Source of the DNA: a virus
Virus record (IMG/VR): IMGVR_UViG_3300025707_000006
Span: 1 to 64,000 of that record
Reading direction: 5' to 3' (one strand)
DNA length: 64,000 nucleotides
Of this stretch, positions 5,965-52,179 are shown in pieces. The position numbers were made by a program, and so were the translations under genes. Numbering within the stretch: position 1 is the first letter of the stretch; each line of letters starts with the position of its first letter. A model generated the notes under the pieces. It was not told the DNA's origin and searched no databases. It worked only from the letters and a program-made list of their open reading frames with translations.

Positions 5965-7487
5965 GTGATATTTTAAGAAGCATACTCCCAGATGAGCCAA
6001 GAGGTGATGACCCTAAGCTCATGTTTCAAAACTACTGTTCTCTTAAGGAGTCTGTCTTACGCTTTGACTTACCCTCAGAAGTCAATGTGTTCGAGTATGT
6101 TGAGGACTTCACTCTCAAGCATGGTCATTTACCTTCGCAACAGGGAGTTAGAGAATACTTTGAAGAGAATCAATCCTTTGATGAAGCAGATCGTATTCAA
6201 CAGATCGCTAACCGACCAGTCTCTTATCGAGGTGACTTTGTATCCCTAATCGAAAGACGAGTTGAAGAAGGTCGGATGACTAAGTTAGCTTCTGTTATGG
6301 CTGACGCTAAAGTCATCGCTCGTACAGGGCTTGAGGTTAAAGAAGGTCGGACAAAGAAGATCATTAAGGGTTCAAGGGATGCGGGGAACTTCCTACTCAA
6401 TGAGATTGCTAAGATAAACACCCCTACCTTTGGCTCTCGTATCGGGGGAGAAATCTTAGGTGATGGTGAAGACTTTTGGAATGAGTATGAACGCACTTGT
6501 AATAAACAAACTGACATCCTCCCACAAACAGGGCTATCTATTATTGATAATGCTATCGGTGGGTTCAAGAGAAAAGAACTATACATCATGGCGGCTTTTA
6601 CAGGTCACCTTAAATCTACCTCAAGTTTAAATTGGGTTTACAATCAGTCTGTCTATGGAGGGACTGATACACTGTATTTCTCTCTTGAAATGCACTATAC
6701 TCAATGTAGACGCATCATCTATGTCTATCATTCTATGCACCCTAAGTTCCGAGATAAGCGTATCGCTTTGGGTATACAGCAGGGTCAAACAGATGCAGGT
6801 ATTGATCCAGACAAGATCAAAAAGGGAACACTTACAGAAGATGAGCGTTCTTACATGAGAGATGTCATTGAAGATCTCGACAACGGTATGAAACAAGGAA
6901 ATTATGGGTCAATCCACATTGAGGTTGCCGATCCCGATGTTCTTGACTTCACAGTTGAAAACATCCGTACTAGAGCCGAGCTACTTTATCAAAAGGCCCC
7001 TTTCAAGATGATGGTGGTAGACCATGCTTTATTGGTCTCCCCTCGTAAGTGGGTAGCGTCCACTACGGATCGGTTAAATGAGGTCATCAGAGATCTTAAA
7101 AAGACATCTCTTGGATTTAATCGTGGTGAAGGTATTCCTGTCTTATGTCTGTTTCAGATCAGTCGTGAGGGTTATAAGTCAGCCGAGAAAAACGGTGGGT
7201 CTTACAACCTCACTCACTTGAGTTATGCAAATGAAGCAGAGCGTTCTGCTGATCTTGTGATCTCAAGTTGGTATGGTGATGATAAGCGTGAGAACAGTTT
7301 GGTTAAATACCAATGCCTCAAGTCTCGTGACCAAGCCCCCTTTGAAGAGTTTGACGCACAAATCGCTTGGCCTTATGGTCGTATCCTCGATATGCCTTTA
7401 CAGTTCCAAACGAACACCTCTTATAAGAGCAAAGGTAAAAAGACTGAAGTGTTTGACGATCCTTTAGACGCTCTCATGGATCTGTAA
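5961..7487 (+). CDS. DnaB-type replicative helicase
   Basis: 508 residues with the RecA-like C-terminal domain of hexameric DnaB helicases: GLSIIDNAIGGFKRKELYIM leads into the P-loop AAFTGHLKST (211-220), then LYFSLEM, the Walker B-like MMVVDHALLV and later LCLFQISREG, YANEAERSADLVI. The P-loop is atypical because Leu stands where Gly normally precedes the Lys. The N-terminal 170 residues are helical and diverge from bacterial DnaB. It should unwind DNA at the phage fork. It overlaps the loader gene upstream and touches the methyltransferase gene downstream, linking the replication genes and the modification island in one transcription direction. Confidence 0.85.
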   Translation: MSDILRSILPDEPRGDDPKLMFQNYCSLKESVLRFDLPSEVNVFEYVEDFTLKHGHLPSQQGVREYFEENQSFDEADRIQQIANRPVSYRGDFVSLIERRVEEGRMTKLASVMADAKVIARTGLEVKEGRTKKIIKGSRDAGNFLLNEIAKINTPTFGSRIGGEILGDGEDFWNEYERTCNKQTDILPQTGLSIIDNAIGGFKRKELYIMAAFTGHLKSTSSLNWVYNQSVYGGTDTLYFSLEMHYTQCRRIIYVYHSMHPKFRDKRIALGIQQGQTDAGIDPDKIKKGTLTEDERSYMRDVIEDLDNGMKQGNYGSIHIEVADPDVLDFTVENIRTRAELLYQKAPFKMMVVDHALLVSPRKWVASTTDRLNEVIRDLKKTSLGFNRGEGIPVLCLFQISREGYKSAEKNGGSYNLTHLSYANEAERSADLVISSWYGDDKRENSLVKYQCLKSRDQAPFEEFDAQIAWPYGRILDMPLQFQTNTSYKSKGKKTEVFDDPLDALMDL

Positions 7488-8707
7488 TGTTCTTTGAAAT
7501 CGACAAACCTAAACTCCCACCCCTCAAGGAGCTGAACCTATTAGATAAGAACAACGAGTTCTCGATTCCGTCCGACCTGTGGGCTTCTATCTTAGACCAA
7601 TACACGAAGCAAGAAATCATCGAGCATTTTTCGGATCTTATTGAGAACACTCCTGTGCCTTTCCCCTATAGAGTCTACGGTCTTGGAAATGTCCGTAAGG
7701 ACTACCTAGAGCTTTGCTCTGATACAGTGAAATGGGAAGAAGAAAGATGGGAGGCACTAAGGACACCTAAAGACCTTCCTATGCTCTATAAGGACAGGCC
7801 GATACACCTCGATTACATAAGTAAAAAAGGACTGTCTGTGTCGGATATGTTCACACAAGAAATACGAATGGAGTGTGGACATAAGTCAAGCCCATCGCCC
7901 ACTCGACAATGGGATCGGGTTGGATATAAATCAAAAGTTAGACCCATCTTAAAAGTCTTGATGGGATTGAACTTAAGTAGAACACTGAGGAGTGGTGTGT
8001 ATAAGACTGCCATGTTTGATTGCCTCCGACTTGGTAGGTACATGGCGAGTCAGTTTAAGCCCTCTTGTGCTAAAGCTATCTACGATTTCTTTGGTGCAAA
8101 GAAAGTGTTAGACTTCAGTGCTGGTTGGGGTGATAGGCTGGTTGGCTTTCATGCCTCTGATGCCGAGTCTTACATCGGCATAGATCCAAATACTAGACTC
8201 CACATTCAGTATAAAAAGATCTCCTCATTCTGTAACACCGATAAGGAGGTTAGGTTCATCTGCTCTCCTGCTGAAGATGCAGACTTATCTGATGTTAAAG
8301 TAGACTTCATTTTTACAAGCCCTCCTTATTTTGATACCGAGAGATATAGCCAAGAAGGAACTCAGTCGTGGAAGAGATACCCGACAATGAATGGATGGTT
8401 GAGTGGATTTCTTTACCCTACCCTCAATAAGAGTTGGGAAGCGTTAGAGGAAGGGGGTCGGATAGCAATCAATATAACTGATGTTCTTGATGGGAGTCAT
8501 TACTTAGAAATCATCAAACCGATGATTGAGTACATGGAGGGCTTAGGTGCTACTTATGAAGGAGTAGTCGGATATAGGACGAAAAAGAGACCAGGCGAAA
8601 ATCAAGGGATTGTTGGAGGGAGCGTGTTCTGCGAACCTATCTTCATTTGGTCTAAGGGGGAAGCTCTCGAACCTAAGTGGCATCAAGATAACTACTTCGG
8701 AGTTTGA
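7487..8707 (+). CDS. SPPY-type DNA methyltransferase, paralogue 1
   Basis: 406 residues. The class I SAM-methyltransferase domain occupies the C-terminal half: SAM-binding motif LDFSAGWGDRLVGF (about 208-221), acidic GIDPN (231-235) and catalytic SPPY (278-281). SPPY is typical of N4-cytosine/N6-adenine amino methyltransferases. The N-terminal 180 residues form a family-specific region shared with the three paralogues (8805, 10040, 15111). It begins MFFEI and ends PKWHQDNYFGV, features shared across this island. The start overlaps the helicase stop by one base (TAATG). DNA as substrate is inferred from the SPPY motif; target specificity is unknown. Confidence 0.8.
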   Translation: MFFEIDKPKLPPLKELNLLDKNNEFSIPSDLWASILDQYTKQEIIEHFSDLIENTPVPFPYRVYGLGNVRKDYLELCSDTVKWEEERWEALRTPKDLPMLYKDRPIHLDYISKKGLSVSDMFTQEIRMECGHKSSPSPTRQWDRVGYKSKVRPILKVLMGLNLSRTLRSGVYKTAMFDCLRLGRYMASQFKPSCAKAIYDFFGAKKVLDFSAGWGDRLVGFHASDAESYIGIDPNTRLHIQYKKISSFCNTDKEVRFICSPAEDADLSDVKVDFIFTSPPYFDTERYSQEGTQSWKRYPTMNGWLSGFLYPTLNKSWEALEEGGRIAINITDVLDGSHYLEIIKPMIEYMEGLGATYEGVVGYRTKKRPGENQGIVGGSVFCEPIFIWSKGEALEPKWHQDNYFGV

Positions 8708-8709
8708 CT

Positions 8710-8796
8710 ATGAGACTCATTTATACTGTAGCCTTTATAAGTACAATACCTGTAAAGAACGCAGGGAAAGCCTGCCTCAATGCAGTCAATCTTTAG
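8710..8796 (+). CDS. Possible 28-residue peptide between methyltransferase genes
   Basis: A short frame, starting MRLIYTVAFISTIPVKNAG, that begins two bases after the methyltransferase 1 stop. It uses the GGAG inside that gene's Phe-Gly-Val codons as a ribosome-binding site. This is the same arrangement used by the larger genes downstream. It may be a real peptide, a translational relay to the next gene or the worn-down start of a lost gene. Evidence is limited to spacing and start signals. Confidence 0.25.
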   Translation: MRLIYTVAFISTIPVKNAGKACLNAVNL

Positions 8797-8804
8797 GAGA
8801 ATGA

Positions 8805-10010
8805 ATGTTTTTTGATTATGAAAAAAAAGCCAAAGATAAGATAGACGAATATGAGGTTGTAAGAGGACAAGAGATCTTCATACAACCTCATCAGTGGTCA
8901 GAGATGCTTGATAAGTTTACTCGTGATGAGATCATCACTTACTTATCAACTAAGATCGAAGGGATACCATTCCCATATACTAAATATACTCCTCAAGAGG
9001 TGCATCGTGATTGGTTAGATGTTCAGTCCGACTATATGACACCAGTGGCAGGAGAGTGGGGATTACCTCGATGTCAGTTAGAGGATGCTCATACTTACAA
9101 AGGTAGGTATCTTTACTTCGCACCTAATAACAAAGGACTCAAAGTCTCTAATCAGTTCACCGAGTTCGCAAGAGTATTAGTAGACCATCGAGAATATAAA
9201 AGTGCCATGACTCAATGGACTCGAATAGGTATGAAGGGCGATAAGAGATACTTCCTTAGACCCTTTTTCACCCTATACGACAGGTCTAAAGGGGTTAATA
9301 GGAAAATGCTCTTTAACGCTATAAATATGTCTTATTACATACCTGCTCAGTTCAAACCAACACTCTCCAAAGCCATGTATAACTTCTTCGGGGCAAAGAA
9401 GGTCTTAGATTTCTCTATGGGATGGGGTGATAGGCTAGTTGGTTTCCTCGCTTCTGACGCTCTGTCGTATGTTGGTATTGACCCTAATACAAAACTCCAT
9501 GAGCCTTATGGACAAATAGATTCGTACTGTAATGCAAACAAAGAAACTAAGTTCATTTGTTCTCCAGCTGAGGATGCTGACCTAACTGATGTTAAAGTAG
9601 ACTTTATCTTCACAAGCCCTCCTTACTTTGATACCGAGAAGTATAGCCAAGAAGATACTCAGAGTTGGAAGAGATACCCCAAAACAGATGACTGGCTCAA
9701 TGGATTTCTTTACCCGACACTCAAGAAATGTTGGGAGGTATTAGAAGACGGAGGACGGATCTGCGTCAATATCTCAGACAAGGTTTATGGTGATATACGA
9801 GTATGCCAACCCATGATTGAATACATGGAGTCATTAGGTGCTACTTACGAGGGAGTGATTGGTTATAGGATGTCCAAGAGACCAGGAAATCACCATTCAT
9901 TGAACGAGGATCTGTCTAAGGTAAGTGTTTTTTGCGAACCTATTTTCATTTGGAGTAAGGGAGAAGCCCCCGAACCTAAATGGAATCAAGATAACTTCTT
10001 TGGGGTATAA
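8805..10010 (+). CDS. SPPY-type DNA methyltransferase, paralogue 2
   Basis: 401 residues, closest to paralogue 3. Both begin MFFDYEK and share long runs such as FAPNNKGLKVSNQ and VLDFSMGWGDRLVGF. The SAM motif has Met where paralogues 1 and 4 have Ala. Catalytic TSPPYFDTEKYS is intact and the C-terminus is EPKWNQDNFFGV. The start has the site TTTAGGAGA and the first ATG is used. It probably methylates an exocyclic amino group in DNA. The reason for keeping several intact copies is not visible; different target sites or subunits of one complex are both possible. Confidence 0.8.
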   Translation: MFFDYEKKAKDKIDEYEVVRGQEIFIQPHQWSEMLDKFTRDEIITYLSTKIEGIPFPYTKYTPQEVHRDWLDVQSDYMTPVAGEWGLPRCQLEDAHTYKGRYLYFAPNNKGLKVSNQFTEFARVLVDHREYKSAMTQWTRIGMKGDKRYFLRPFFTLYDRSKGVNRKMLFNAINMSYYIPAQFKPTLSKAMYNFFGAKKVLDFSMGWGDRLVGFLASDALSYVGIDPNTKLHEPYGQIDSYCNANKETKFICSPAEDADLTDVKVDFIFTSPPYFDTEKYSQEDTQSWKRYPKTDDWLNGFLYPTLKKCWEVLEDGGRICVNISDKVYGDIRVCQPMIEYMESLGATYEGVIGYRMSKRPGNHHSLNEDLSKVSVFCEPIFIWSKGEAPEPKWNQDNFFGV

Positions 10011-10039: not shown

Positions 10040-11272
10040 ATGTTCTTTGATTATGAAAAAACCAAAAAAGAGAACCTTGAAGAGTATGAGGTTTTGAGAG
10101 GGAATGAGATCTTTATCCCACCCCATCAGTGGCTAGAGATGGTAGATAGTTTTAGTAGAGATGAGATCACTGATTATCTGTCTGCAAAGATTGAAGATTT
10201 ACCTTACCCCTTCACTAAGTACACACCACAAGAGATCAAGAAAGATTGGTTAGAGGTTCAGTCCGATTACATGATCCCGATTGAGGGTGCTTGGGGATTG
10301 CCACGATGTCAGTTAGACGAAGACCATACTTACAAAGGTAGGTATATTTACTTCGCACCTAATAACAAAGGACTCAAAGTCTCTAATCAATATAGTGAAC
10401 CTATGCGTTTAGAGGTAGACCATAAGCAGTTCCCAAGTGCAATGAGACAATGGACACGAACTAACCTCAAGTCCAAAAAGAGAGCGTTCCTTAGACCTTT
10501 ATGGACATTGTATGATCCGTCAAAAGGTGTGAACAGCAAGATACTTGTAAACGCTATCGGTATGTCTGGTTATATCCCAGCACAGTTCAAACCTACTTTA
10601 GCTAAGGCGATGTATAACTTCTTCGGGGCTAAAAGAGTATTGGATTTCTCTATGGGATGGGGCGATAGATTAGTTGGATTCCTATCTTCTGATGCCGAGT
10701 CCTATGTAGGATTAGACCCTAATACAAAACTCCATGAGCCTTATCAGAAGATCGCTGATTATTGTTCTACGAGTAAGACCACTAGGTTCATCTGCTCTCC
10801 TGCCGAAGATGCAGACCTGTCTGATGTTAAAGTAGACTTCGTTTTCACGAGTCCACCTTATTTCGACACCGAGAAATATAGTCAGGAGGAGACTCAATCA
10901 TGGAAGCGTTATCCAGAGACTGATGATTGGCTGAATGGGTTTCTTTACCCAACCCTCAAGAAATGTTGGGATTGCTTAGAAGAGGGAGGGAGGATATGCG
11001 TAAACATCTCTGATAAAGTCAGAGGAAACATACGAGTGTGTCAGCCCATGATTGAGTATATGGAGTCATTAGGTGCTACTTATGAAGGCGTGATTGGTTA
11101 TCGGATGGCAAAGAGGCCAGGAAACCACCACTCTTTAAATGATGAGTTGTCCAAGATGGATGTTTTCTGTGAGCCGATTTTCATTTGGAGTAAGGGAGAA
11201 GCCCCCGAACCTAAATGGAATCAAGATACTTACTTTGGGGTGTGTGAGGTCGGTCATGTGGGGAAACCTTGA
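10040..11272 (+). CDS. SPPY-type DNA methyltransferase, paralogue 3
   Basis: 410 residues, a recent duplicate of paralogue 2. It has SAM motif LDFSMGWGDRLVGF, GLDPN and SPPYFDTEKYS, all intact. The shared C-terminal PKWNQDTYFGV is followed by nine extra residues (CEVGHVGKP), as if the ancestral stop after Val was lost. The extension overlaps the first 17 bases of the next gene. A GAAAGGATTT site precedes the ATG. Same inferred activity as its paralogues. Confidence 0.8.
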   Translation: MFFDYEKTKKENLEEYEVLRGNEIFIPPHQWLEMVDSFSRDEITDYLSAKIEDLPYPFTKYTPQEIKKDWLEVQSDYMIPIEGAWGLPRCQLDEDHTYKGRYIYFAPNNKGLKVSNQYSEPMRLEVDHKQFPSAMRQWTRTNLKSKKRAFLRPLWTLYDPSKGVNSKILVNAIGMSGYIPAQFKPTLAKAMYNFFGAKRVLDFSMGWGDRLVGFLSSDAESYVGLDPNTKLHEPYQKIADYCSTSKTTRFICSPAEDADLSDVKVDFVFTSPPYFDTEKYSQEETQSWKRYPETDDWLNGFLYPTLKKCWDCLEEGGRICVNISDKVRGNIRVCQPMIEYMESLGATYEGVIGYRMAKRPGNHHSLNDELSKMDVFCEPIFIWSKGEAPEPKWNQDTYFGVCEVGHVGKP

Positions 11273-12182
11273 TGTATCTAACTTAGATGTATTGACTCCA
11301 TACATCGAGTCTGCTTTAGAGAGAAATCTCCTGTATTACAATCTCAACCCTTTTGAATTCCTAGCCTTTAAAACAAAAGGCAACTTGTTCAAGATTGAAA
11401 ACAATACCTTACATTTTGGTTGGCATGGTGTAATCGGAGCGAGGTTCTTAAAGCTCTACTTCCCCCCTATTCACTTATACGGTGATGAAGAGATTGAAAG
11501 GGAATCTGTTTTAAAAGCTACAAATGAGGGATGCTCTTTGTGGATCGAAAAGGAGCACTCGAAGGCTTTAGGTGTCAAAGCCAAAACTATCTCGGAGTAT
11601 CGAGGAGCTTATCAGCCCATATACCATAGAGACTATCAACTAGCGGGTAAGAAATATAAAAATATGAGGAGAGATAGAAATATCCTCCATTCTCTCATTG
11701 AGAGTGGTGAGTTAGAGTTTGTATTTGACTACCCCTTAAAAGGTCTTACAGGACTCAATAATGCTTGGCTAAGTCAGACTGGTCGTAAAAGGTCTGTGTT
11801 TGACTTTTGTCTTCAGAACGAAAAGCACCTCACACACAGGATCAAAAACCTAACCCTACTTAACAGAGATGGTGAGCCTATCACATCCTCTCTGTACGCT
11901 ATATATTCACCAGATAAATGGCATTGTATAGGTGCGATCTCGGACTATGGGAAGATACCTATTGGTGGGTTGCAAAGACAGTCTGATCTGTATCTGTTTG
12001 AGTTGGAGGAAAAAGTCAACTTAGTGATGGTTGGTGGGTATAGCTATAAAGAGCTGAAGTTCTCTAAATTGGCATTACCACACAGTGTTTATAGGTTAGG
12101 CACACTACCTTCCAATATAACTGTGACCAAAGATATATGGGAGTCCTTTAGACCGAAGCCTCAGACCTATTTTGGAGTGTGA
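11256..12182 (+). CDS. DUF2156/FemAB-like acyltransferase candidate, copy 1
   Basis: 308 residues from the ATG at 11256 (GAGG eight bases upstream). Homologous to the next gene: both share FPPIHLYGDEE, GKKYKNMRRDRN (here) or GKKYAKRRGELN (there) and a C-terminal WESFxPKPxTYFGV. The stretch from YHRDYQLAGKKYKNMRRDRN to IESGELEF resembles the start of the DUF2156 fold of aminoacyl-lipid synthases and FemAB-like GNAT-fold transferases. If right, it may transfer an aminoacyl or acyl group. The substrate is unknown; its place among DNA methyltransferases suggests a modified base. Family call is by pattern memory only. Confidence 0.5.
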   Translation: MWGNLDVSNLDVLTPYIESALERNLLYYNLNPFEFLAFKTKGNLFKIENNTLHFGWHGVIGARFLKLYFPPIHLYGDEEIERESVLKATNEGCSLWIEKEHSKALGVKAKTISEYRGAYQPIYHRDYQLAGKKYKNMRRDRNILHSLIESGELEFVFDYPLKGLTGLNNAWLSQTGRKRSVFDFCLQNEKHLTHRIKNLTLLNRDGEPITSSLYAIYSPDKWHCIGAISDYGKIPIGGLQRQSDLYLFELEEKVNLVMVGGYSYKELKFSKLALPHSVYRLGTLPSNITVTKDIWESFRPKPQTYFGV

Positions 12183-12183
12183 A

Positions 12184-13107
12184 ATGTGGAACTACCTAAC
12201 CCCCAAAGACTTTGAGACATTGATACCTTACTTAAAGAGTGCAATACAACGAGGGTGGAAGTATTACGATCTCTGTGTGATAGATCGTATGTGGTGTTAT
12301 AATAATCAAATCCTCTTCAAGATAGAGAACGACATATTATATGTGTCTAGGTTGCACCGCTTCATTAATAACTTAATCCATAAGATGCAGTTCCCTCCAA
12401 TCCACTTGTACGGTGATGAGGAACTTGAAAAGAAAGCCTTGCTAGGAGCTTTGGAAATAGGTGTGTCCGTAAACGCCACAAAGCAAGTCGCAAAAGACCT
12501 CGGATTAAAATACACCTTAATGAGTCAATGGGATGGTGGGTGTGAAGTGGTCTATACAAAAGACCATCTCAAAATGGACGGTAAAAAATATGCAAAGCGA
12601 AGAGGTGAGTTAAACAAAATCAAAAGGTTGATTTCTAGCGGTCAACTCATGGTCAAACTCGATAGTGATTTAGATTCTTTGTACGGTCTGTTTCAAACAT
12701 GGAAAAGGCAACAAGGGTACAAAACAGGGATGTATGAATACCTCCTTAAAAACAAAGAATACTTACCCTACTTAAAAGTCTTTAGTGTGCGTAACTCTGA
12801 TAAGGTAGTGTTTGCATCTGTGTTCCTAAACATCGACAAATCGACTTGGATTTCCCCTTGCTCAATGACGGATTATGAAAATACAGTTAGTGGGTTTCAA
12901 AGACTCTCTAAGATCCTCCTGTTAGATATGCAGGAAGATTTAGAAACGATCATCGAAGGTGGGTGGGTCACAGAAGAAATCAAAAGAGGAAAGACATTGA
13001 TCCCTCACGAGATATGGAGGATCGCTAAAATCATAAGCCCCAAAAAGCTCTCGAAGATTGAGTGGGAGAGTTTTAAGCCAAAACCGAATACCTACTTTGG
13101 AGTTTAA
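12184..13107 (+). CDS. DUF2156/FemAB-like acyltransferase candidate, copy 2
   Basis: 307 residues, a diverged tandem copy of the preceding gene. It has MQFPPIHLYGDEELEKKAL, VYTKDHLKMDGKKYAKRRGE, KIKRLISSGQL, then WKRQQGYKTG, and ends WESFKPKPNTYFGV. The ATG at 12184 is used; a GGAGTG inside the final codons of the upstream gene provides its ribosome-binding site. The same trick links this gene to the next one. GNAT/DUF2156-fold acyl transfer is the working call. Which residues bind the acyl donor cannot be judged without a structure-based alignment. Confidence 0.5.
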   Translation: MWNYLTPKDFETLIPYLKSAIQRGWKYYDLCVIDRMWCYNNQILFKIENDILYVSRLHRFINNLIHKMQFPPIHLYGDEELEKKALLGALEIGVSVNATKQVAKDLGLKYTLMSQWDGGCEVVYTKDHLKMDGKKYAKRRGELNKIKRLISSGQLMVKLDSDLDSLYGLFQTWKRQQGYKTGMYEYLLKNKEYLPYLKVFSVRNSDKVVFASVFLNIDKSTWISPCSMTDYENTVSGFQRLSKILLLDMQEDLETIIEGGWVTEEIKRGKTLIPHEIWRIAKIISPKKLSKIEWESFKPKPNTYFGV

Positions 13108-13108
13108 T

Positions 13109-15121
13109 ATGTTATTTGAAACAACATTCAACGCTGAGAGTTTCTACAAGAAGTTTACACCAATCTTAAAAGAGATCTCTGTACCAGAAAACTTAGTGCC
13201 GTTTGCAGAGTGCTTATCCGAGTATCACGAACTAGACTTAGATATTTCCGTTGAGCCTAAAGTATTTGTAGATCCACAAGATGGTGGCGACCAAAAAAAA
13301 GCCATCGTTCTTTTATCTGGAGGGATTGATAGTGCTTGGTGTCTCTTATGGGCTTTAGAACAAGGTCTGAATCCACAACCTTTATTTGTGGATGGGCTGA
13401 ACGCTTCTCAAAACTCTCGTGAGCGTAAAGCTGTCCAAGTCTTATGTGATAAGCTAGACCTGCCCCTCATCACATATAAACACCCAACCCATCTCAAAAA
13501 GCTACATAAAGATCCGTCTAATATATTCAAGATACCAGAGAGCTTTGTGAAACTACAGTATGCTCTGATGGCAATCAAAGATGACATACGAAAAGAGGGC
13601 ATAGCAGGGGTCATTGTCACCTGCCCTACTAACCAACCCGAATACATTGACCCTACTGCACCTAAGAAAGAAAATGGGGAACCGCTGACATGGTTTCAAG
13701 ACTCAGAAGAGTCTATGGAAACTTTCTTACCGTTCCTCTCCGATTATATTGGGTGGGGTTTTAAAGGATACTACCCTGTCACCATGAAAGAGCAGAAGAT
13801 AAAAGCTCTAATGGACAAAGGGATCTTTGAAGATACCTGCTCGTGCGTATGCAATCCTATGTTCTTTTCGGGTCATCGTAAGAGATCAAAACCCAAGTAT
13901 TCCAATATGTGCGGCGTGTGTTGGAAGTGCAAAGAAAACCTAGCTTTCATCAGTAAACTTAACCGAGATGATGAAGTCGTTGAAGATGAGATGCCAGAAG
14001 AGCCTCAAATGAAACCTTGGCAAAAAGGATATGAGTTAGATTATCTTAAAAGCGTAGAGGGTCAGTTCAACGCTTTTAATGACCTGTGTATTTCCCCATT
14101 CCTACAGATGAAAAAAAATAAAGTCGCAGACCACTTACACGATGGCACTTTAATCCTTAAAGACGGATTTAGGTGCATCCTTAAAAAGTCTAAAACTAGA
14201 ACGAGTATAAAAGTGTACTCGAATAGGGATCACACCCTCGCTTATAAAGATGTAGGCGAGTTCGCTATGGGTAAGTTAGTCATTGATGATGTGAGTGAGT
14301 TTAAAGAATACTGCGATAAGATTGATCAGAACATTTGGGTCATCAGCTTTGACTCGATTGAGAAAGATCTTCTCTCATGCGGGTTTGTTAAGCTAGGATA
14401 TAAATACACCTCCTTTGGTGATGATCTCACTGTGTTCCTTTTGCAAAAGCAAATCGACTTTTTCGGTACGAACACAAATAGACTAATCTTTAATGACCCT
14501 TTAGAAAGAGCTACCTGTGTGAAACTCGACTCCAACTTTGAGGTTGAGTCCATCGCAGATAAGTTAGCCGCTTACGAATTTAAGAAGCACTACTCCAACT
14601 ACAATAGTGGTGGGTGGTCAGCTATCAGTCTAAGAGGGTTTAGCGATGACCCCTCCTTCATTATCAAACCAGAAGAGATGAATGATAAATGGACGGAGCA
14701 AAACTCAGAGACAGATTTCTATCTGAGAGACACCGAAGCGTATGAATATTTTAGCGAGGTAAGGGAGATCATAAACACAGTCGCCCCAAACCAAAAGATC
14801 GAGAGGGTGAGAATAATGAAGCTCTCTGAAGGATCTGAGATTAAAAAGCATACTGATCTAGTAGATCCAGATTGTGGTGTCGGGGTAGGAGAAACAGCAA
14901 GGTTTCATGTGCCGATTAAAACAAAAGATGCTGTCTTTGAGGTATGGGGACAAAATGGTAAAGAGTCATTCTCTTTAGAGAAGGGTTCTCTATGGTATCT
15001 CGACACAAGAAAACCACACCGAGTCATTAACCCAACCAGCGATAGATACCATCTTGTTTTTGATGTCTTTGTTGATCAAGAAATAAGAGAACTTATCAAG
15101 AGATGCTTAAATGTTCTTTGA
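13109..15121 (+). CDS. QueC-like PP-loop ATPase / GNAT-like / AspH-type oxygenase fusion
   Basis: 670 residues, at least two clear enzyme domains. Residues 60-290: N-type PP-loop ATPase with SGGIDS (70-75) and a QueC-like cysteine cluster (C244, C246, C248, then CxxCxxC at C268, C271, C274). Residues about 311-460 look GNAT-like at the end (CGFVKLGYKYTSFGDDLTVF). Residues 480-660: aspartyl/asparaginyl beta-hydroxylase type 2-oxoglutarate/Fe(II) oxygenase with H581xD583, H647 and R656. QueC makes preQ0 by converting a carboxylate to amide and nitrile; the oxygenase could hydroxylate the product or a base. No other queuosine genes are visible here. The combined role is inference; the domains are directly readable. 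Confidence 0.75.
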   Translation: MLFETTFNAESFYKKFTPILKEISVPENLVPFAECLSEYHELDLDISVEPKVFVDPQDGGDQKKAIVLLSGGIDSAWCLLWALEQGLNPQPLFVDGLNASQNSRERKAVQVLCDKLDLPLITYKHPTHLKKLHKDPSNIFKIPESFVKLQYALMAIKDDIRKEGIAGVIVTCPTNQPEYIDPTAPKKENGEPLTWFQDSEESMETFLPFLSDYIGWGFKGYYPVTMKEQKIKALMDKGIFEDTCSCVCNPMFFSGHRKRSKPKYSNMCGVCWKCKENLAFISKLNRDDEVVEDEMPEEPQMKPWQKGYELDYLKSVEGQFNAFNDLCISPFLQMKKNKVADHLHDGTLILKDGFRCILKKSKTRTSIKVYSNRDHTLAYKDVGEFAMGKLVIDDVSEFKEYCDKIDQNIWVISFDSIEKDLLSCGFVKLGYKYTSFGDDLTVFLLQKQIDFFGTNTNRLIFNDPLERATCVKLDSNFEVESIADKLAAYEFKKHYSNYNSGGWSAISLRGFSDDPSFIIKPEEMNDKWTEQNSETDFYLRDTEAYEYFSEVREIINTVAPNQKIERVRIMKLSEGSEIKKHTDLVDPDCGVGVGETARFHVPIKTKDAVFEVWGQNGKESFSLEKGSLWYLDTRKPHRVINPTSDRYHLVFDVFVDQEIRELIKRCLNVL

Positions 15122-16286
15122 ATATAAGACTGAACTTAACTCACTAGACGACATTGAATATATTAAAGATGGCTATCTTCACATACGCCCTAACGAATGG
15201 AGTATGCTTCGTGAGAAATATACTAAGGAAGATATCAAAGACCATATCGCACCCATCGTTGAGTCTTTACCTTATCCTTACTCTGAGTACACAACGGAGT
15301 CTGCAAAGAAGGACTTCATAAGCCTCAAAGCGAAAAAAGAGCCATTCGTATTTGATGAATGGGTAGCACCACGCCAAGCTACTCCCCTAGAGACTACTTA
15401 TCTAGGTAAGCACATTTACCTCAACAGCTATTACAAAGGTAAAGAGGTGTCTAACCTGTTCACTCAAGAACAGAGGATGAAATGTAGCTATCGCACACAA
15501 GGTAACTCACCTTATGACGAATGGGTCAACGCTAGTAAGAATAACTCGTTCCTACGATGCTTCTTCGGTATCTGTGAAAATGACATTTATGAGAGGGGTG
15601 GGGTCAATAAACAAACCCTTAGAAGAGCATTGAAGATGCACACATATATGGCTAGTCAGTTCAAAGCTGAGTCTGCTAAAGCTCTCTATGATCTGTTCCA
15701 ATCTAAAAGCGTCTTAGATTTCTCAGCAGGTTGGGGTGATAGGTTAGTAGGCTTCCTAGCTTCAAATGCCGACTCCTATATTGGGATTGATCCTAATACT
15801 AAGCTCCATGAACCATATCAGCAAATCGTCAACCTCTGTGATACAGGTAAAGAGGTTAGGTTTATTTGCTCACCTGCTGAAAATGCTGACCTCTCTGATG
15901 TCAAAGTAGACTTTATCTTTACGAGCCCACCATACTTTGACATCGAAAGGTACAGTACAGAGTCCACACAATCATGGAAGCGATACCCAGACCTTAAGGA
16001 TTGGGTCAATGATTTCTTACTCGCTACCCTCACCAAGTGCTGGTCTGCACTTAAAGATGGTGGCCGGATAGCCATCAACATTGCGGATAAAAAAGGAGAG
16101 GACATCTGCACTCCTATGCTTGAACACATGAAGAATTTAGGGGCTACATATGAAGGGGTGATAGGATATCGAATGTCTGAGCGTGGTGGTCAGAAAACAG
16201 ATTGCCCTACTTGTGAGCCGATCTTTATTTGGAGTAAGGGTTTAACACCCGAACCTAAATGGAATTATAATGAGTATTTTTTTTGA
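15111..16286 (+). CDS. SPPY-type DNA methyltransferase, paralogue 4
   Basis: 391 residues, the most diverged of the four. It begins MFFEYK and has LDFSAGWGDRLVGF, GIDPNTKLHEPY and SPPYFDIERYS. Its end, PKWNYNEYFF, is a variant of the island's YFGV tail. It overlaps the fusion gene upstream by 11 bases. It has the same family-specific N-terminal region as the others, including MASQFKAESAKALYDLF just before the SAM motif. Methyltransferase activity is well supported by motifs; the target is not. Confidence 0.8.
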   Translation: MFFEYKTELNSLDDIEYIKDGYLHIRPNEWSMLREKYTKEDIKDHIAPIVESLPYPYSEYTTESAKKDFISLKAKKEPFVFDEWVAPRQATPLETTYLGKHIYLNSYYKGKEVSNLFTQEQRMKCSYRTQGNSPYDEWVNASKNNSFLRCFFGICENDIYERGGVNKQTLRRALKMHTYMASQFKAESAKALYDLFQSKSVLDFSAGWGDRLVGFLASNADSYIGIDPNTKLHEPYQQIVNLCDTGKEVRFICSPAENADLSDVKVDFIFTSPPYFDIERYSTESTQSWKRYPDLKDWVNDFLLATLTKCWSALKDGGRIAINIADKKGEDICTPMLEHMKNLGATYEGVIGYRMSERGGQKTDCPTCEPIFIWSKGLTPEPKWNYNEYFF

Positions 16287-16295
16287 AGAGGTGTT

Positions 16296-17423
16296 ATGCA
16301 GTTATTTAACTACAAAAAAATAGGAGGTCAGACCCTTAAATCAAAAGTGGTCTTAGATCCTGTCGTTGAAAAAGTAGCAAGTGAGTCCGACTATAAGTTC
16401 AATGGTGAAACTTCATTTGTTGTACCTGAGTTTGATGTTCCTCCCGACTTCACATTAGGAGTGATATATGGGCCGAGTGGTTCGGGTAAGTCTACCCTCT
16501 TAAAAGAATTCGGAGAAGAAGCTGTTGGAGCATGGGATCAATCTTTAGCTATAGCTTCTCAAGTAGACCCAAACCTACTCTTGAGACTCGGATTATCGTC
16601 TATCCCCTCTCTTTGCAGACCATATCATGTCTTAAGCACAGGTGAGAAACATAGAGCTGATATAGCTAAAAACCTAACAAATGGATGTGTCATAGATGAG
16701 TTCACTTCTGTGTGTAATCGAGACTTCGCTCAATCAATCTCTGTGGGACTGAGGAAAGTCATAGATCATTACGGATATAAAAATGTGGTCATCGCTACCT
16801 GCCACGAAGATGTCATAAATTGGTTAGAACCAGATTGGGTTGCTAACACATTAACGAGGCGGCTCGTAGAAGGGAGGTCGGAAAGGCGATCTTCAACTTT
16901 TAGAGTTCTACCTTGCTCAGTCGAAGTCTGGTCAATCTTCAGCGACCATCATTATCTGAGTGGAGATCTCAACAAGGGTGCTCATTGTTGGCTACTCATC
17001 AACGAAAATAATACAATCTGTGGCTTCATGTCTGCGATTGCATTACCAGGAGGGAATGTACGCAATGCTTGGAGAACACATCGAACAGTAATCTTACCCG
17101 ACTTTCAAGGTATGGGATTAGGGTCAAGACTGTCTAATGCTATAGCTAAGATGTACTACGATAAAGGATGTCGATTCTTCGGTAAAACTGCACACCCAAA
17201 GCTCGGTGAACATCGAAACAACTCTGAACTATGGAAACCCACAAGGAATAATAGAGTCAGCAACAAGAGTATGTCCTATGAAAAAATGAAGGACTCCAAA
17301 TACTCTAAAAAGTTTCTGCAAAAGCACAACAATAGAGTATGTTATGCACATGAATATATTGGCGATGGAACTATGAACTTGAAAGGTCAAGAGCCAAAAA
17401 AAGAGCATACTCCATTCTTTTGA
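16296..17423 (+). CDS. ABC-ATPase fused to GNAT acetyltransferase domain
   Basis: 375 residues. The N-terminal half is an ABC-type ATPase without membrane segments: Walker A GPSGSGKST (59-67), signature LSTGE (113-117), Walker B CVIDE (131-135) and H-loop TCH (158-160). The C-terminal half starts near SDHHYLSGDLNKGAHCWLL and has the GNAT acetyl-CoA-binding pattern LPDFQGMGLGSRL (257-269), then GKTAHP. GNAT proteins of the Mu Mom type modify adenine in phage DNA, so a base-modifying role fits its neighbours. It begins MQLFNYKK, loosely like the MFFxY starts of the island. It is the last member of the run. Confidence 0.7.
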   Translation: MQLFNYKKIGGQTLKSKVVLDPVVEKVASESDYKFNGETSFVVPEFDVPPDFTLGVIYGPSGSGKSTLLKEFGEEAVGAWDQSLAIASQVDPNLLLRLGLSSIPSLCRPYHVLSTGEKHRADIAKNLTNGCVIDEFTSVCNRDFAQSISVGLRKVIDHYGYKNVVIATCHEDVINWLEPDWVANTLTRRLVEGRSERRSSTFRVLPCSVEVWSIFSDHHYLSGDLNKGAHCWLLINENNTICGFMSAIALPGGNVRNAWRTHRTVILPDFQGMGLGSRLSNAIAKMYYDKGCRFFGKTAHPKLGEHRNNSELWKPTRNNRVSNKSMSYEKMKDSKYSKKFLQKHNNRVCYAHEYIGDGTMNLKGQEPKKEHTPFF

Positions 17424-18021: not shown

Positions 18022-18055
18022 AATCCTCGTCATATTCCTGTTGAGCGAGGATTAA
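18022..18055 (-). repeat. Short remnant of the actin gene 3' end
   Basis: 34 bases identical to the last codons of the actin-like gene (19144-19177) and to part of the longer fragment at 18532. It includes GAGGATT at the stop region and leads directly into a class I promoter. It follows the stop of the tag gene 18052-18468. It is the smallest of three copies of this 3' end. Confidence 0.7.
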
Positions 18056-18468
18056 GCCTCTTTTACTTCAATCTCTTTATGGTCATAGATAACTTGGAAA
18101 GTCATCTTATGAACATAATTTTCAACCCCAAAAAGTTGAAGTTTTCTGGGTCTATCCATCGTACACTTAACCTCAACTATTAGATCCCCAGCAAGATTAA
18201 TAGATCGATACCCAAGAACTTTAATGTCTAAGTCGTCTGGTGTGTCTTCGGGAATATCAAAATCAAAAAAACCCTCGATGCCCAAGAAAAAGTCATATAA
18301 AGCGTCTTCTACCCAGTTTGATCTAACTCTTGACCCCGATAGTTTGCTTAAATCTTTTGCTATCGTGGTGGATAGGCTCTTGAGGGTTTCTTCCCGACTT
18401 GATTGTTTTTCAAGTCTAGCGATTCTTGACTCAAGGTTACGGATAATTTCACTAGCTGATCTTCTCAT
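18052..18468 (-). CDS. Tag A protein (MRRSASE family)
   Basis: 138 residues. It begins with the tag MRRSASEIIRNLESRIARLE, a short basic head and amphipathic helix shared with about ten otherwise dissimilar proteins here. The body (SSREETLKSLSTTIAKDLSK onward) is a mixed alpha/beta segment with no recognised motif. It sits between two fragments of the actin gene end, each with its own class I promoter, so the locus looks like a repeated cassette. The tag may direct packaging, assembly or oligomerisation. Function unknown. Confidence 0.6.
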   Translation of the reverse strand: MRRSASEIIRNLESRIARLEKQSSREETLKSLSTTIAKDLSKLSGSRVRSNWVEDALYDFFLGIEGFFDFDIPEDTPDDLDIKVLGYRSINLAGDLIVEVKCTMDRPRKLQLFGVENYVHKMTFQVIYDHKEIEVKEA

Positions 18469-18677: not shown

Positions 18678-19067
18678 TTAACCAACAATGACAGTGTTAG
18701 GTCGATCAACCATGTTTGTTTGATACCTGTCCATTAACTCCGCATCAGTATCGAGGATGGCTTTGTTAATTTCTACTTCAACGCAAAAATGCACTTTGCT
18801 TGACGAGATTGTCTTTACATTAGAGACAATACCCATTTGCCGAAGGTTTACCATATCAGACATGAAAGAGGAAACTGCTGATTTTAGAGTAGATGGATAA
18901 AGGTGCGTGAAGCAATACTCATTAGCATGGGAGTTAAAATTCATTAAAATAACACATTCATCTCCGTCAATTATTCTGGTATTGTATGCCGCAGTTTTAC
19001 TTTTACCTTCAAGTCGTGCGATCCTAGACTCAAGATTTCTGATTACTTCACTAGCTGATCTTTTCAT
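18678..19067 (-). CDS. Tag A protein (MKRSASE variant)
   Basis: 129 residues from the ATG at 19067, preceded by AAATGGAGAACTATA. The frame stays open upstream through the leader (MISLTLTKWRTI), but that stretch is the conserved non-coding leader of the family. Tag MKRSASEVIRNLESRIARLE is followed by an alpha/beta body (YNTRIIDGDECVILMNFNSH and later VKTISSSKVHFCVEVEINKA). Its stop lies just before the actin gene fragment. No function recognised. Confidence 0.6.
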   Translation of the reverse strand: MKRSASEVIRNLESRIARLEGKSKTAAYNTRIIDGDECVILMNFNSHANEYCFTHLYPSTLKSAVSSFMSDMVNLRQMGIVSNVKTISSSKVHFCVEVEINKAILDTDAELMDRYQTNMVDRPNTVIVG

Positions 19068-19114
19068 TATAGTTCTCCATTTTGTTAAGGTTAAAGAGAT
19101 CACTTAAGACCAAT

Positions 19115-21863: not shown

Positions 21864-22328
21864 ATGAGCGATAAATGGAAAGCAGGACCTGAAGTCCAAG
21901 AGCAGATTAATCATCTCATCGGAAACGCACACCCACACTTGGCTGACATCATGAATGACATTGTAGTCATCTTTAAAGAGAAGTGTTCACGCAAGGGTGG
22001 TCGCCCTATTCTCGGTAAGACCTCAAAAGCACCAGGGATCTTGTCTGTCCTTGGGGATCACGCATACGAGTTTGTCATTGAGCTTGGGGCAGACTGTTGG
22101 AACAACCTTAAAGAGAATGAGCGTATGGCTCTACTTGACCATCTTCTCTGCTTCATCGGAGGTGAAGAAGACGAGAAATCGGGTGAGATGAAGTATTATC
22201 TCTCGACTCCCGATGTCTTTTATTTCTCTGAGGAAGTTGCTCGTAATGGGAGTTGGCGTGAGGAGATCCTACCCGATGGTGTACCCGAAGAGGGTTCAGA
22301 CGCACCTTTGTTAGACCCTATCGGTTAA
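21864..22328 (+). CDS. Degenerate phage metallopeptidase-like protein
   Basis: 154 residues. FVIELGADCWNNLKENERMA followed by LLDHLLCFIGG matches the putative phage metallopeptidase family, where the motif is normally LLDHELCHC, an HExxH zinc site. Here it reads HLLCF, so the Glu and second His are gone and zinc catalysis is unlikely. The rest of the fold appears kept, so a binding role may remain. Strong GGAGG before the ATG; a TATAAGGT element lies upstream. It overlaps the convergent tag A gene by four bases. Confidence 0.6.
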   Translation: MSDKWKAGPEVQEQINHLIGNAHPHLADIMNDIVVIFKEKCSRKGGRPILGKTSKAPGILSVLGDHAYEFVIELGADCWNNLKENERMALLDHLLCFIGGEEDEKSGEMKYYLSTPDVFYFSEEVARNGSWREEILPDGVPEEGSDAPLLDPIG

Positions 22329-22903
22329 AGGTCTAACCACCTTTTGAGTTCATTGCGATAGTTCTCACCCTTGTTGATGTAGTGGCTAACGATTTCATTA
22401 GACATGAACCTCATGTGGCATCCGATTGTCCAACGAAGATCACCCTTTCGATCAATCGAAGCATTTTCAAGTGTCAACATGAAATGGGGATCTTCAGACC
22501 CATCAAGAAGTGTTCCTGACTGTAGCACTCGCCGATAATCCCCACCGCTCAGTTTAAATGCCTTTCGTCTAGGGTCAAACTTTACATACTTTGGGAAAGT
22601 CTTATCAAAGGATTCTGATACGGTACCATCAGTATCGAGCTTATGTAGTGATGAAAGAATCTTCATAATATCTACAACTTCGTCATACAACTCGATATAC
22701 AACTCTTGGGTAGGGGTGGTTTCTTCTTCTTGTCCAAAGTAATCATCTTTAAAAATCTTTGAGTCATCTTCATAGTATGATCTCTCTGCGTCATACATAT
22801 TAGAGTCAAAATAACCTTGTGGGTATCCTGCTGTCCTTTGGTTTTCAAGACGAGCGATTCTTGACTCAAGGTTTCTGATTACTTCTGATGCTGATCTTCT
22901 CAT
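22325..22903 (-). CDS. Tag A protein (MRRSASE family)
   Basis: 192 residues. After the tag comes a Tyr/Asp-rich linker (YPQGYFDSNMYDAERSYYED), then an alpha/beta body ending in YINKGENYRNELKRWLDL. The body is not similar to other tag A bodies that I can see. Consensus promoter and GGAACAG leader lie upstream. Function unknown. Confidence 0.6.
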   Translation of the reverse strand: MRRSASEVIRNLESRIARLENQRTAGYPQGYFDSNMYDAERSYYEDDSKIFKDDYFGQEEETTPTQELYIELYDEVVDIMKILSSLHKLDTDGTVSESFDKTFPKYVKFDPRRKAFKLSGGDYRRVLQSGTLLDGSEDPHFMLTLENASIDRKGDLRWTIGCHMRFMSNEIVSHYINKGENYRNELKRWLDL

Positions 22904-34059: not shown

Positions 34060-34821
34060 TTATCTTCTCTTAAACTTCGCTTTATTGAGGTGAATCTGAA
34101 TGTGTCCTTTTTCTCCTATACCAATATCATAGTCCTTATCGTAGCCCGATTTGAGCTTTTGAAATATGGGGTACTTTCTTGTTAGGAGTTTATTAAGATC
34201 ATTGGTTAGAGGTCCAGCCCACTCATCCCACCAACCTTCTTCATCCCAACCTTCTGGATCACAGTCATCATCCCAATCCTCATCACAGTCATAATTCTCT
34301 CCAACATAATGGTCGAGTCTATGTCTATTCATAGGTTCTATCCATAGGAACCAGGTATCTCCATCGTCACTTAGATCCATACCACTCATACGACTGCCAT
34401 TCGGGGTCCTTGATCTAATCAAGAAATCGTATACCTCTTGAGCTGTCGGTAGTTGTTCTTCAACTGTAGGTCGAGATCGAGGTGTTGATCTAGTAGGTGT
34501 TGGTTGTCGAACAGCTCTTGCACTTGGAACAGAGGGTTGTCTACCTGTTGGGTTGGATCTAAATGAGTCAGCCAAGTCAGATGCGTTGTTTCTGTGCATC
34601 ATCTTTCTGATGTTTTTTAGATCACGATCACTAAGATCTCCACCGTCTTTGAGGATCTGAAGGTATCCTCCAAGTTCAATGACCATTCTCGTGTCAGTTC
34701 GGTTTTGAGCTATGAAACCCCTAAGAACTTCATAAGCCTCTGTCTTAGTAGTCGCTTGTTTTTCAAGCCTTGCAATCCTCATCTCAAGACTTCTGATTAT
34801 TTCTGAGGCTGATCTTCTCAT
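34060..34821 (-). CDS. Tag A protein with acidic C-terminal domain
   Basis: 253 residues. The tag has Met for Ser at position 14 (NLEMR-type). A helical segment follows, then a Pro/Arg/Ser/Thr linker (about 95-120). The C-terminal domain contains the very acidic run YDCDEDWDDDCDPEGWDEEG, then WWDEWAGPLTNDLNKLL. The acidic loop could bind divalent metal. Function unknown. Promoter at 34859 and standard leader upstream. Confidence 0.6.
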   Translation of the reverse strand: MRRSASEIIRSLEMRIARLEKQATTKTEAYEVLRGFIAQNRTDTRMVIELGGYLQILKDGGDLSDRDLKNIRKMMHRNNASDLADSFRSNPTGRQPSVPSARAVRQPTPTRSTPRSRPTVEEQLPTAQEVYDFLIRSRTPNGSRMSGMDLSDDGDTWFLWIEPMNRHRLDHYVGENYDCDEDWDDDCDPEGWDEEGWWDEWAGPLTNDLNKLLTRKYPIFQKLKSGYDKDYDIGIGEKGHIQIHLNKAKFKRR

Positions 34822-35808: not shown

Positions 35809-35823
35809 TAAAATTTGACTATC
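35809..35823 (-). promoter_or_regulatory. Weak class I promoter, diverged tag A gene
   Basis: Gene-sense GATAGTCAAATTTTA, ten of fifteen matches to the consensus, in the expected place and overlapping the upstream stop. Confidence 0.35.
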
Positions 35824-36934
35824 TAAGAGAGACTGCTTCCATTTTATAAGTCAAATAAGTGATTGCAGGGTATCGACTCGCTGTCTTACCCTCTACCATC
35901 TCATCATATTCGTCAGTATTAACCACCCAGCGATACATCGCTTTCTCTAAGAGAGCTAAAAACCCTGTTATGATGAGTGGTGCAAAACTACCTATGTTTT
36001 GTTTTAGATAATCCTTAACCTGATCTGCATTTAAACTGATCGGTTGGTATTGAGATATTGGAGTCTCTATCGTTGTATGCTCAATTTGAAGGAAGTTATT
36101 ATCTGAAGCAGGGATAGCGTCTAATGTAAGATCTCCTTTTGACATTGCTACTTCCATTTTTTTAGCAAGGTCTTGGGCTTCTTCTATCGTGGGGAGCTGT
36201 GTGGTCGGAGGAACTTCTTGAACAATACGAACCCTTGTATTTTGACTCAAAGCGGTATACTCAGTCATATCTGCTAAAGTGGTTCTTAACCCAGAGGCTT
36301 GGACAATCAAACGAGCTAACATCACAATGATCGTGGTCACTACTGTGCCTTTTAAAGCCATTATCCCCACTACCCCTATGAGAGATGTGAAAAAACGATA
36401 AAGTACCTTAGAATACCTTTTAAGAGCGTTCATGAATATCTTAAAGCTATCCCCTTCACTAATCTTCTTAGGGTTAAGGATATGCTTAAAGTCTGAATAC
36501 CATGAAAGGTATGCACTTTTCATCCTCGTTTGGTTTTCGCCCACATACTTTTTAACAAGGTCTTTTAAAGGAATCTTTTTATCCTCTGCCTTACCCCCTG
36601 TGAAGATAGATTTCAAAGGGTCTGAAGGATTAAAGGAAACGATCTTAGGTAAGCCAGCTCTTGTGGTTGTCACACCTGCCATAGCTCTAAAAATCCTTGA
36701 ACCCAACAACGCCCCTAAAGAGTCGTTAATCTTGGATTTATTTCCCTCAACTTCAAGATTGACCGTATTGTATATGTCAGCAAATCCATTGATGATCTTC
36801 TTAACAATGTTCTTAGGGATATTAACAAGACCTTTAAATGTACTTGAAATATCATCTATGAACCCTGCTTGACGCTCTAAGTTTGCGACTCTAATTTCAA
36901 GCTCTCTTATGGTTTCACTGGCAGATCTTCTCAT
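35819..36934 (-). CDS. Tag A membrane protein
   Basis: 371 residues. Tag MRRSASETIRELEIRVANLE is followed by helical segments. A strong membrane region lies near 180-215 (FFTSLIGVVGIMALKGTVVT, then TIIVMLARLIVQASG) and another near 325-345 (SFAPLIITGFLALLEKAMY). So a tag A protein can be membrane-embedded. The end, KTASRYPAITYLTYKMEA, resembles tag B. It could be delivered to the envelope at infection; that is inference. Confidence 0.6.
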   Translation of the reverse strand: MRRSASETIRELEIRVANLERQAGFIDDISSTFKGLVNIPKNIVKKIINGFADIYNTVNLEVEGNKSKINDSLGALLGSRIFRAMAGVTTTRAGLPKIVSFNPSDPLKSIFTGGKAEDKKIPLKDLVKKYVGENQTRMKSAYLSWYSDFKHILNPKKISEGDSFKIFMNALKRYSKVLYRFFTSLIGVVGIMALKGTVVTTIIVMLARLIVQASGLRTTLADMTEYTALSQNTRVRIVQEVPPTTQLPTIEEAQDLAKKMEVAMSKGDLTLDAIPASDNNFLQIEHTTIETPISQYQPISLNADQVKDYLKQNIGSFAPLIITGFLALLEKAMYRWVVNTDEYDEMVEGKTASRYPAITYLTYKMEAVSLR

Positions 36935-44320: not shown

Positions 44321-44981
44321 TTGGATAAGGCAAGGATTAATAGGGACACACCCTATACACCTACCTTATCTAGTATCAAGAGGGGTGAATGAAAGTTGTC
44401 TAGTAGATTTCTACTCATGGCAACCCCACACCAATGTTCAATGTCCAAAGTTTAAAGCTAACTTTGGACATTCAGGTGAGCGTATTAAAGACTCACTCAT
44501 AATCCCTATTACTTCCCCACGAGGGGAGATCTTAGGGATGGAAACACGCAGGATCAACGAGGACGGGTCTAAAAGAGTACATCAGTACCGAACCCTCAAT
44601 GCTCAATGGAATCCTTATGCTTTAGGTGCAGAGGAAGGTTTTAAGGCATTGTGGGAACTAGGAGATTTATGGGTTGTTGAGGGGATCTTTGATAAGATCT
44701 CTCTCGATAAGGTCATACCTAGTTGTGATGCCTGTATCTCAACCTTGAGGGCTGGTATGGATGCTATCACAATGGACATGATAGAGCGTTTCTACACACC
44801 TGCCTCAACCATATACATCTGTTATGATAATGATGAGACAGGTCAGAAGAAATCATATTGGCTTCAGCGTGAGATGAAGAAGCGAGGTATGAGGGCTGTT
44901 ATCTGGAAGTATCGAGGGAAAGACCCTAACGATGTGTGGACACAAGGAGGAGATCAAGCTCTAAGGAGAATGTTCCTGTAA
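44310..44981 (+). CDS. TOPRIM primase (DnaG-type core)
   Basis: 223 residues. DSLIIPITSPRGEILGMETR, WVVEGIFD with Glu124 and YICYDNDETGQKKS with Asp173/Asp175 are DnaG TOPRIM motifs, and KDPNDVW (204-210) is the typical end. It makes RNA primers for the DnaB-type helicase replisome. There is no N-terminal zinc finger (DnaG and T7 gp4 have one) and no helicase fusion; a zinc-finger protein may act in trans. It overlaps the convergent tag A gene by 28 bases. Confidence 0.8.
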   Translation: MRDDWIRQGLIGTHPIHLPYLVSRGVNESCLVDFYSWQPHTNVQCPKFKANFGHSGERIKDSLIIPITSPRGEILGMETRRINEDGSKRVHQYRTLNAQWNPYALGAEEGFKALWELGDLWVVEGIFDKISLDKVIPSCDACISTLRAGMDAITMDMIERFYTPASTIYICYDNDETGQKKSYWLQREMKKRGMRAVIWKYRGKDPNDVWTQGGDQALRRMFL

Positions 44982-46255: not shown

Positions 46256-46302
46256 AATGGTTCTCCATTTGATTAAGGTTAGACTGATCACTTATGAGAA
46301 CC

Positions 46303-52083: not shown

Positions 52084-52131
52084 AAGGGTTTCTCCATTTG
52101 ATTAAGGTTAAGATGATCACTTAAGAGAACC

Positions 52132-52146
52132 TATAAATAAACTATT
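52132..52146 (-). promoter_or_regulatory. Class I promoter, tag A gene 51745
   Basis: Gene-sense AATAGTTTATTTATA, the exact consensus, 49 bases before the ATG. Confidence 0.7.
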
Positions 52147-52179
52147 AAAGTTATGGTGTCGAGGTAGAGAACCTAGATT

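Follow-up and report, generated by a model that had tools for sequence, protein, structure and literature searches.

What does a viral protein do that carries, in one chain, a PP-loop ATPase domain resembling QueC, a GNAT-like domain, and an oxygenase domain of the AspH type, and how did such a chain come about? The gene that raises this question lies in the window, which covers the opening 64 kb of a viral contig of 107,480 bases (IMGVR_UViG_3300025707_000006), a metagenomic fragment with no cultured host. The protein, which belongs to a bacterial virus, most likely helps to build an unusual chemical decoration on the viral DNA, because its two halves occur in other viruses as separate genes that nearly always lie near DNA-modifying enzymes.

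The Fusion Gene

The fusion is encoded by an intact frame of 670 amino acids (13109..15121; the operon genes, domains, and motifs of the window described below all lie on the + strand). Its ATG follows the stop of the preceding gene by 1 base, and its 3' end overlaps the next gene. The QueC-like PP-loop domain spans residues 1–288 (13109..13972) and is followed by a linker (13973..14008), a GNAT-fold middle domain of residues 301–480 (14009..14548), and an AspH-type 2OG/Fe(II) oxygenase domain of residues 490–670 (14576..15118).

The three-domain fusion is real. The original prediction, which had named these folds from the sequence, is borne out by Pfam matches above their cut-offs, by AlphaFold2, and by Foldseek. 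AlphaFold2, run on an alignment of 26 rows, modelled residues 300–670 with high confidence, residues 60–120 with a confidence of about 70, and much of the remaining N-terminal part with low confidence; only one homologue in the alignment covered that part. The jelly-roll fold of the oxygenase is thus predicted confidently and the PP-loop fold moderately so. Searched together with Foldseek, the last two domains align with gp4 of the phage LilMcDreamy across 379 columns (E 6e-27).

The PDB, NCBIfam, PHROGs, PADLOC, phage records, and the open literature yielded no characterised or described protein in which these domains are combined; an earlier mention of GNAT-AspH is possible. The fusion is a new combination inside a known kind of system.

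The Oxygenase and Middle Domains

The C-terminal domain matches Asp_Arg_Hydrox (PF05118) at residues 491–653 with 37.3 bits, above the curated Pfam cut-off of 22.6. Foldseek relates it to L-proline cis-4-hydroxylase (E 2e-10), to a nucleoside-antibiotic hydroxylase (7v4m, E 4e-8), and to AspH; the solved folds nearest to it belong to enzymes of amino acids or of nucleoside-antibiotic synthesis. The HxD...H...R signature is intact. It consists of the metal ligands H581 and D583 (HTD at residues 581–583, 14849..14857), the metal ligand H637, and R646 for the 2OG carboxylate (the last two within 15017..15046). The original prediction had placed the second pair at 647 and 656, which are Y and D, through a miscount by ten; its first pair was correct. 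Close homologues have not lost the triad: the AspH sequences aligned in A4 retain it throughout. Fold and conserved residues together strongly imply hydroxylation with Fe(II) and 2-oxoglutarate. Fold, signature, and a score above the cut-off are shared with the PF05118 oxygenases, from which GNAT-AspH proteins differ in their fixed N-terminal GNAT-fold domain and their phage DNA-modification context.

The middle domain, modelled alone, reached a pLDDT of 82.6. All 50 of its top 50 Foldseek matches in the PDB belong to the GNAT superfamily, at weak scores (best E 2e-3), and the order of its secondary structures fits the GNAT fold. The acyl-CoA loop Q/RxxGxG/A is missing from the fusion and from 22 of 23 homologues, the remaining one having an out-of-place match; as a positive control, the loop is found as QGMGLG in an ABC-ATPase/GNAT protein of the same operon. 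Because of the GNAT-only matches and the missing loop, the domain is called a degenerate GNAT fold. The GNAT-like assignment therefore stands for the fold and fails for the CoA loop, and a middle domain dependent on acetyl-CoA is disfavoured.

The QueC-Like Domain

The N-terminal domain matches QueC (PF06508) at residues 64–121 with 24.1 bits, above the curated Pfam cut-off of 22. Its PP-loop, SGGIDS, occupies residues 70–75 (13316..13333), and its predicted zinc ligands are C246, C268, C271, and C274 (13844..13930), the last three within CGVCWKC at residues 268–274. S70, G72, D74, S75, the four cysteines, K148, Q150, and D198 are invariant in all three QueC-like homologues.

Of these three the fusion itself keeps SGGxDS, and its two relatives have SSGxDS (SSGIDS or SSGVDS). 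The SSGxDS form is also found in PP-loop enzymes of the asparagine-synthetase type, so the change does not by itself indicate loss of activity.

Independent Halves in Other Viruses

The halves of the fusion can be observed as independent polypeptides in related viruses. One locus (L065) encodes a stand-alone GNAT-AspH protein of 376 residues with 46% identity, whose own residue 1 aligns with residue 301 of the fusion and whose operon also encodes three proteins related to the methyltransferase-like ones of the window. Another (L003, 8001–8879) encodes a stand-alone QueC-like protein of 292 residues, 53% identical to the QueC-like half of the fusion; there, and in L004 and L062, the QueC-like gene alone closes an operon of the same type as that of the window. 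Finally, a 196-kb viral contig (L137) that also carries the SPPY methyltransferase-like family has a GNAT-AspH gene (7989–9125) overlapping by 4 bases a QueC-like gene (9122–9922), whose product is 40% identical to the QueC-like domain of the fusion.

Because the halves adjoin elsewhere as separate genes, the fusion joins two proteins that are already linked there. The fused form itself was found only in the window; GNAT-AspH stood alone at every one of the 80 loci that the last scan covered. Chance joining or a random assembly chimera is an unlikely origin, since relatives of the same operon encode the halves separately, codon differences are concentrated at third positions, and the joint coincides exactly with residue 1 of the stand-alone relative. 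An in-frame ATG at 14009, following AGAAGAG, may serve as an internal start for a separate GNAT-AspH product.

The overlapping genes of L137 also bear on the proposal that one protein activates a carboxylate with ATP and then hydroxylates the product. Their context supports a single pathway; the carboxylate, the PP-loop chemistry, the order of the steps, and the substrate are what we infer.

The GNAT-AspH Family

GNAT-AspH is common: one scan of IMG/VR confirmed 282 stretches, and one member belongs to a sequenced phage, LilMcDreamy, which is cultivated on Mycobacterium smegmatis mc2 155. It is a large phage family with two contexts. In a first set of 35 loci, TET/JBP, amino acid:DNA transferase (ADDT), and/or P-loop kinase genes accompany it in 20, and the SPPY methyltransferase-like family in 14 others. 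The second set comprised 80 loci, counted without removal of duplicates and with flanks of at most 8 kb; a PLP enzyme is present in 57, the SPPY family in 51, and at least one of the two in 72.

An example of the ParB-TET/JBP-ADDT-kinase context can be found in LilMcDreamy, where gp1 to gp5 are, in order, ParB-like, Tet_JBP, ADDT (PF18724, E 3e-12, 47.3 bits), GNAT-AspH, and the kinase Ploopntkinase3 (PF18751, E 1e-71, 240 bits). The first is annotated as ParB-like and is homologous to a ParB_N protein. The second (L005, 855–1787) is labelled a queuine tRNA-ribosyltransferase in its record; since its sole Pfam match is a weak Tet_JBP (17.7 bits), with no TGT family, the label was dropped as evidence for deazaguanine.

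PP-loop proteins of another kind, resembling PAPS reductase, are brought in by a bacterial bin and by an Erythrobacter phage, and one lies inside the cassette at L048. In the Erythrobacter phage, ZS04, a single protein (gp7; L052, 2326–4764) combines ParB-like, DNA methylase, and PLP-enzyme domains. In Gordonia phage Jace, an aspartate decarboxylase (gp87; L012, 5110–5535; PF02261, E 2e-33) adjoins ParB and ABC-GNAT genes, a hint that beta-alanine may supply the acyl group.

The Operon and Its Exchangeable Slot

Upstream of the fusion lie three SPPY methyltransferase-like paralogues: the first (7487..8707) ends in a QDNYFGV tag, the second (8805..10010; PF01555, 38.1 bits) in QDNFFGV, and the third (10040..11272) in a tag followed by 9 extra residues. 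They are followed by a pair of paralogues, A (11256..12182, QTYFGV tag) and B (12184..13107, NTYFGV tag). B resembles FemX by a weak match to PF09924 (18.7 bits, cut-off 27.5), and A is FemX/LPG-synthase-like only via its homology to B; no relatives of the pair were found in IMG/VR. Downstream follow a fourth SPPY paralogue (15111..16286, NEYFF tag) and, 1.2 kb from the fusion, the ABC-ATPase/GNAT gene with the QGMGLG loop (16296..17423; phrog_11143), which matches Tenacibaculum phage pT24 with E 3e-54. For this ABC-GNAT family, acylation of a DNA base was predicted by Iyer and Aravind (PMC7824862).

Operon proteins of different folds share starts of the form M[F/L]F[D/E] or [QD]LF[ND]Y (genes beginning at 7487, 8805, 10040, 13109, 15111, and 16296). 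These starts are partly ancestral to the methyltransferase-like family and are also found on the ABC-GNAT and QueC-like proteins of the lineage.

Among the sister contigs, L060 and L061 are the nearest, with a methyltransferase-like protein at 93% and 87% identity. In both, and in L063, the FemX-like pair and the fusion give way to a cassette that encodes a thymidylate-synthase-like protein (PF00303), a PP-loop protein resembling asparagine synthase (PF00733), and a PLP enzyme (L060 11635–14045; L061 12612–15022; L063 6577–8997). These swaps show that the slot repeatedly holds a PP-loop ATPase, with varying partners.

No TET/JBP, ADDT, or PLP gene was found on the window's contig, so that the upstream chemistry here appears unlike that of both better-populated contexts. 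The full combination that marks amino-acid DNA hypermodification, an ADDT, a DNA kinase, and a 5hmU/5hmC source in one operon, is likewise absent from this operon.

A Probable Tailoring Enzyme for DNA Bases

The reading best able to account for these observations, to which we assign a probability of roughly 0.6, is that the fusion acts as a tailoring enzyme in a pathway by which the phage hypermodifies DNA bases and whose product would lie in DNA. The four SPPY paralogues, together with the ABC-GNAT protein and the FemX-like pair, would equip a base with an amino-acid-like group, most likely at an exocyclic amine. The AspH domain would hydroxylate this group using Fe(II), O2, and 2-oxoglutarate. 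The QueC-like domain would use ATP to adenylate the carboxylate of the group, after which ammonia or an amine would form an amide; its superfamily and its replacement in the slot by an asparagine-synthase-like protein point to this chemistry. The degenerate GNAT domain would act as a substrate-binding scaffold or have a structural role, most likely with no use of acetyl-CoA. The steps may run in either order, on whichever base is the target, and tailoring could come before or after transfer to DNA.

This reading is favoured by the linkage of GNAT-AspH to TET/JBP, ADDT, kinase, SPPY, and PLP genes, by the gene overlap in L137, and by the presence in the same operon type of the QueC-like protein alone (L003, L062) and of GNAT-AspH alone (L065). 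The slot swaps, the solved relatives of the AspH domain, and the predicted acylation by ABC-GNAT point the same way. Counting against it are the SSGxDS form in two of three homologues, the modest PP-loop model, the missing TET/JBP, ADDT, and PLP genes, and the absence from the fusion of a C-terminal tag described below.

Phage thymidine hypermodifications are amino acids that are added to 5hmdU within DNA and subsequently remodelled. A hydroxylase and an amide-forming enzyme would fit this logic. The 5hmdU DNA kinase chemistry has been described (PMC6449724).

In the pathways of M6, ViI, and phiW-14, which proceed through 5hmdU, a DNA kinase, amino acid transfer, and tailoring, GNAT-AspH would correspond to the tailoring position, as judged from the actinophage operons exemplified by LilMcDreamy gp1–gp5; the present contig differs from them in having SPPY methyltransferase-like enzymes in place of TET/JBP and ADDT. 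To our knowledge, neither an AspH-type oxygenase nor a PP-loop ATPase has been described in those pathways, and we know of no enzyme of the AspH or QueC-like type shown to tailor DNA bases. A search of the open literature found no AspH in phage DNA modification. The predicted ABC-ATPase/GNAT acyl-modification system of pT24 and other phages is represented near the fusion by the same ABC-GNAT family, and no report of that system with QueC-like or AspH proteins was found in the open literature.

A broader proposal is more tentative, with somewhat less than an even chance of being right. SPPY, PLP, GNAT-AspH, and PP-loop genes (QueC-, asparagine-synthase-, or PAPS-reductase-like) may together form a widespread DNA hypermodification pathway that amidates and hydroxylates an amino-acid-like base group and whose DNA-acting enzymes reach the replication fork through tails that bind the sliding clamp.

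Clamp-Like Tags and the Site of Action

The tags at the ends of the operon proteins were defined as an aromatic or aliphatic residue plus F inside the last five residues; examples are QDNFFGV, QDNYFGV, QLDLFGL, QVDLFGI, and TQEYFF. QLDLF is the bacterial beta-clamp consensus. Across nine related loci, 33 of the 36 enzymes that act on DNA carry the tag (the methyltransferase-like, ABC-GNAT, and FemX-like enzymes and other DNA methylases), compared with 15 of the 199 remaining proteins (Fisher p 3e-25, a value that overstates independence because the pattern was set post hoc and the paralogues are related). It is common to several unrelated folds, and in other phages the termini of ABC-GNAT proteins read QISLF and LDFMFGI. 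The tags suggest a possible coupling of post-replicative modification to replication.

Among the fusion, the stand-alone forms of its halves, and the proteins of the slot (PP-loop, thymidylate-synthase-like, PLP), the tag is present in 0 of 12 cases. The fusion would therefore work either on DNA without the clamp or on a precursor. In the latter case, which we consider rather unlikely, the pathway would be the same and the fusion would make a soluble donor, either an amino acid or a nucleotide that has been hydroxylated and amidated (or amino-acylated), for the tagged enzymes to place on DNA. The distribution of the tag agrees with such a division of labour, as does the action of the solved oxygenases nearest to the AspH domain on free proline. 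However, DNA as the substrate is also compatible with a missing tag, the neighbouring TET/JBP-ADDT-kinase steps occur on DNA by the logic of the 5hmdU kinase and by what is known of these families, and the fusion begins with MLFE, like the methyltransferase-like proteins.

Relation to QueC and Deazaguanine

Canonical QueC has the motifs SGGxDS, C(x)8CxxCxxC, YxQxHxxE, VPxRN, and YPDC (PMC13329287). The last three, the substrate motifs, are not at the aligned positions of the QueC-like domain, near which a KxQ and an [FY]xD are conserved instead. The four cysteines of the predicted zinc site are present with a far wider first gap, C(x)21CxxCxxC, and the domain scores 16.1 bits against the NCBIfam QueC equivalog TIGR00364, whose cut-off is 150.3. 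Across the whole 107-kb contig, which is possibly incomplete, no FolE, QueD/PTPS, radical SAM (QueE), or TGT gene was found; the absence of FolE, QueD, QueE, and Tgt/DpdA genes first remarked for the window thus extends to all of it, and supports the earlier view that the protein does not have to act on a 7-deazaguanine. By its motifs, the equivalog cut-off, and the absent pathway genes, the domain is ruled out as a canonical preQ0 synthase and is best described as a QueC-like enzyme that is not QueC.

Improbable, on the same grounds, is a role in which the domain takes 7-carboxy-7-deazaguanine from the host, the compound on which QueC, Cap9, and QatC act, and the fusion attaches or decorates deazaguanine on DNA or protein. 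It draws on the Pfam score above the cut-off and on the nearest solved structures by profile, which are Cap9 (the best match) and QueC, both matching residues 56–126 only. Cap9 and QatC also provide a precedent, being QueC scaffolds repurposed for deazaguanylation (PMC13329287), and the zinc-site spacing of the fusion is like the long spacing of QatC. With all three proteins the fusion shares the PP-loop signature and a predicted zinc site of four cysteines; it differs in its score, spacing, and lack of the substrate motifs, in being fused to GNAT-AspH, and in the absence of partner pathway genes.

Two other lines were abandoned. A match to phrog_1550 was dropped as proof of QueC identity, since it occurs in 14 of 14 control genomes, and PADLOC offered for a defence system only a generic QueC match at the PP-loop (35.6 bits).

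Animal AspH hydroxylates proteins, and enzymes of the AspH and FemX-like types are able to use tRNA or protein as substrates (the FemX-like pair would use aminoacyl-tRNA, by its weak PF09924 match), but an operon directed not at DNA but at the tRNA or protein of host or phage is highly improbable given the repeated linkage to DNA methyltransferase-like, TET/JBP, ADDT, ParB, ABC-GNAT, and replication genes and the clamp-like tags on the partner enzymes.

Other Shared Termini

About ten otherwise different proteins of the window and of L006–L008 start with MRRSASEIIRNLESRIARLE(K/R)Q or a near form, among them those of the window at 18052–18468, 18678–19103, 22325–22903, 34060–34821, 35819–36934, 44954–46291, and 51745–52605. 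This start is perhaps a capsid-targeting or ejection tag. Other proteins carry a motif resembling RVASRYL.
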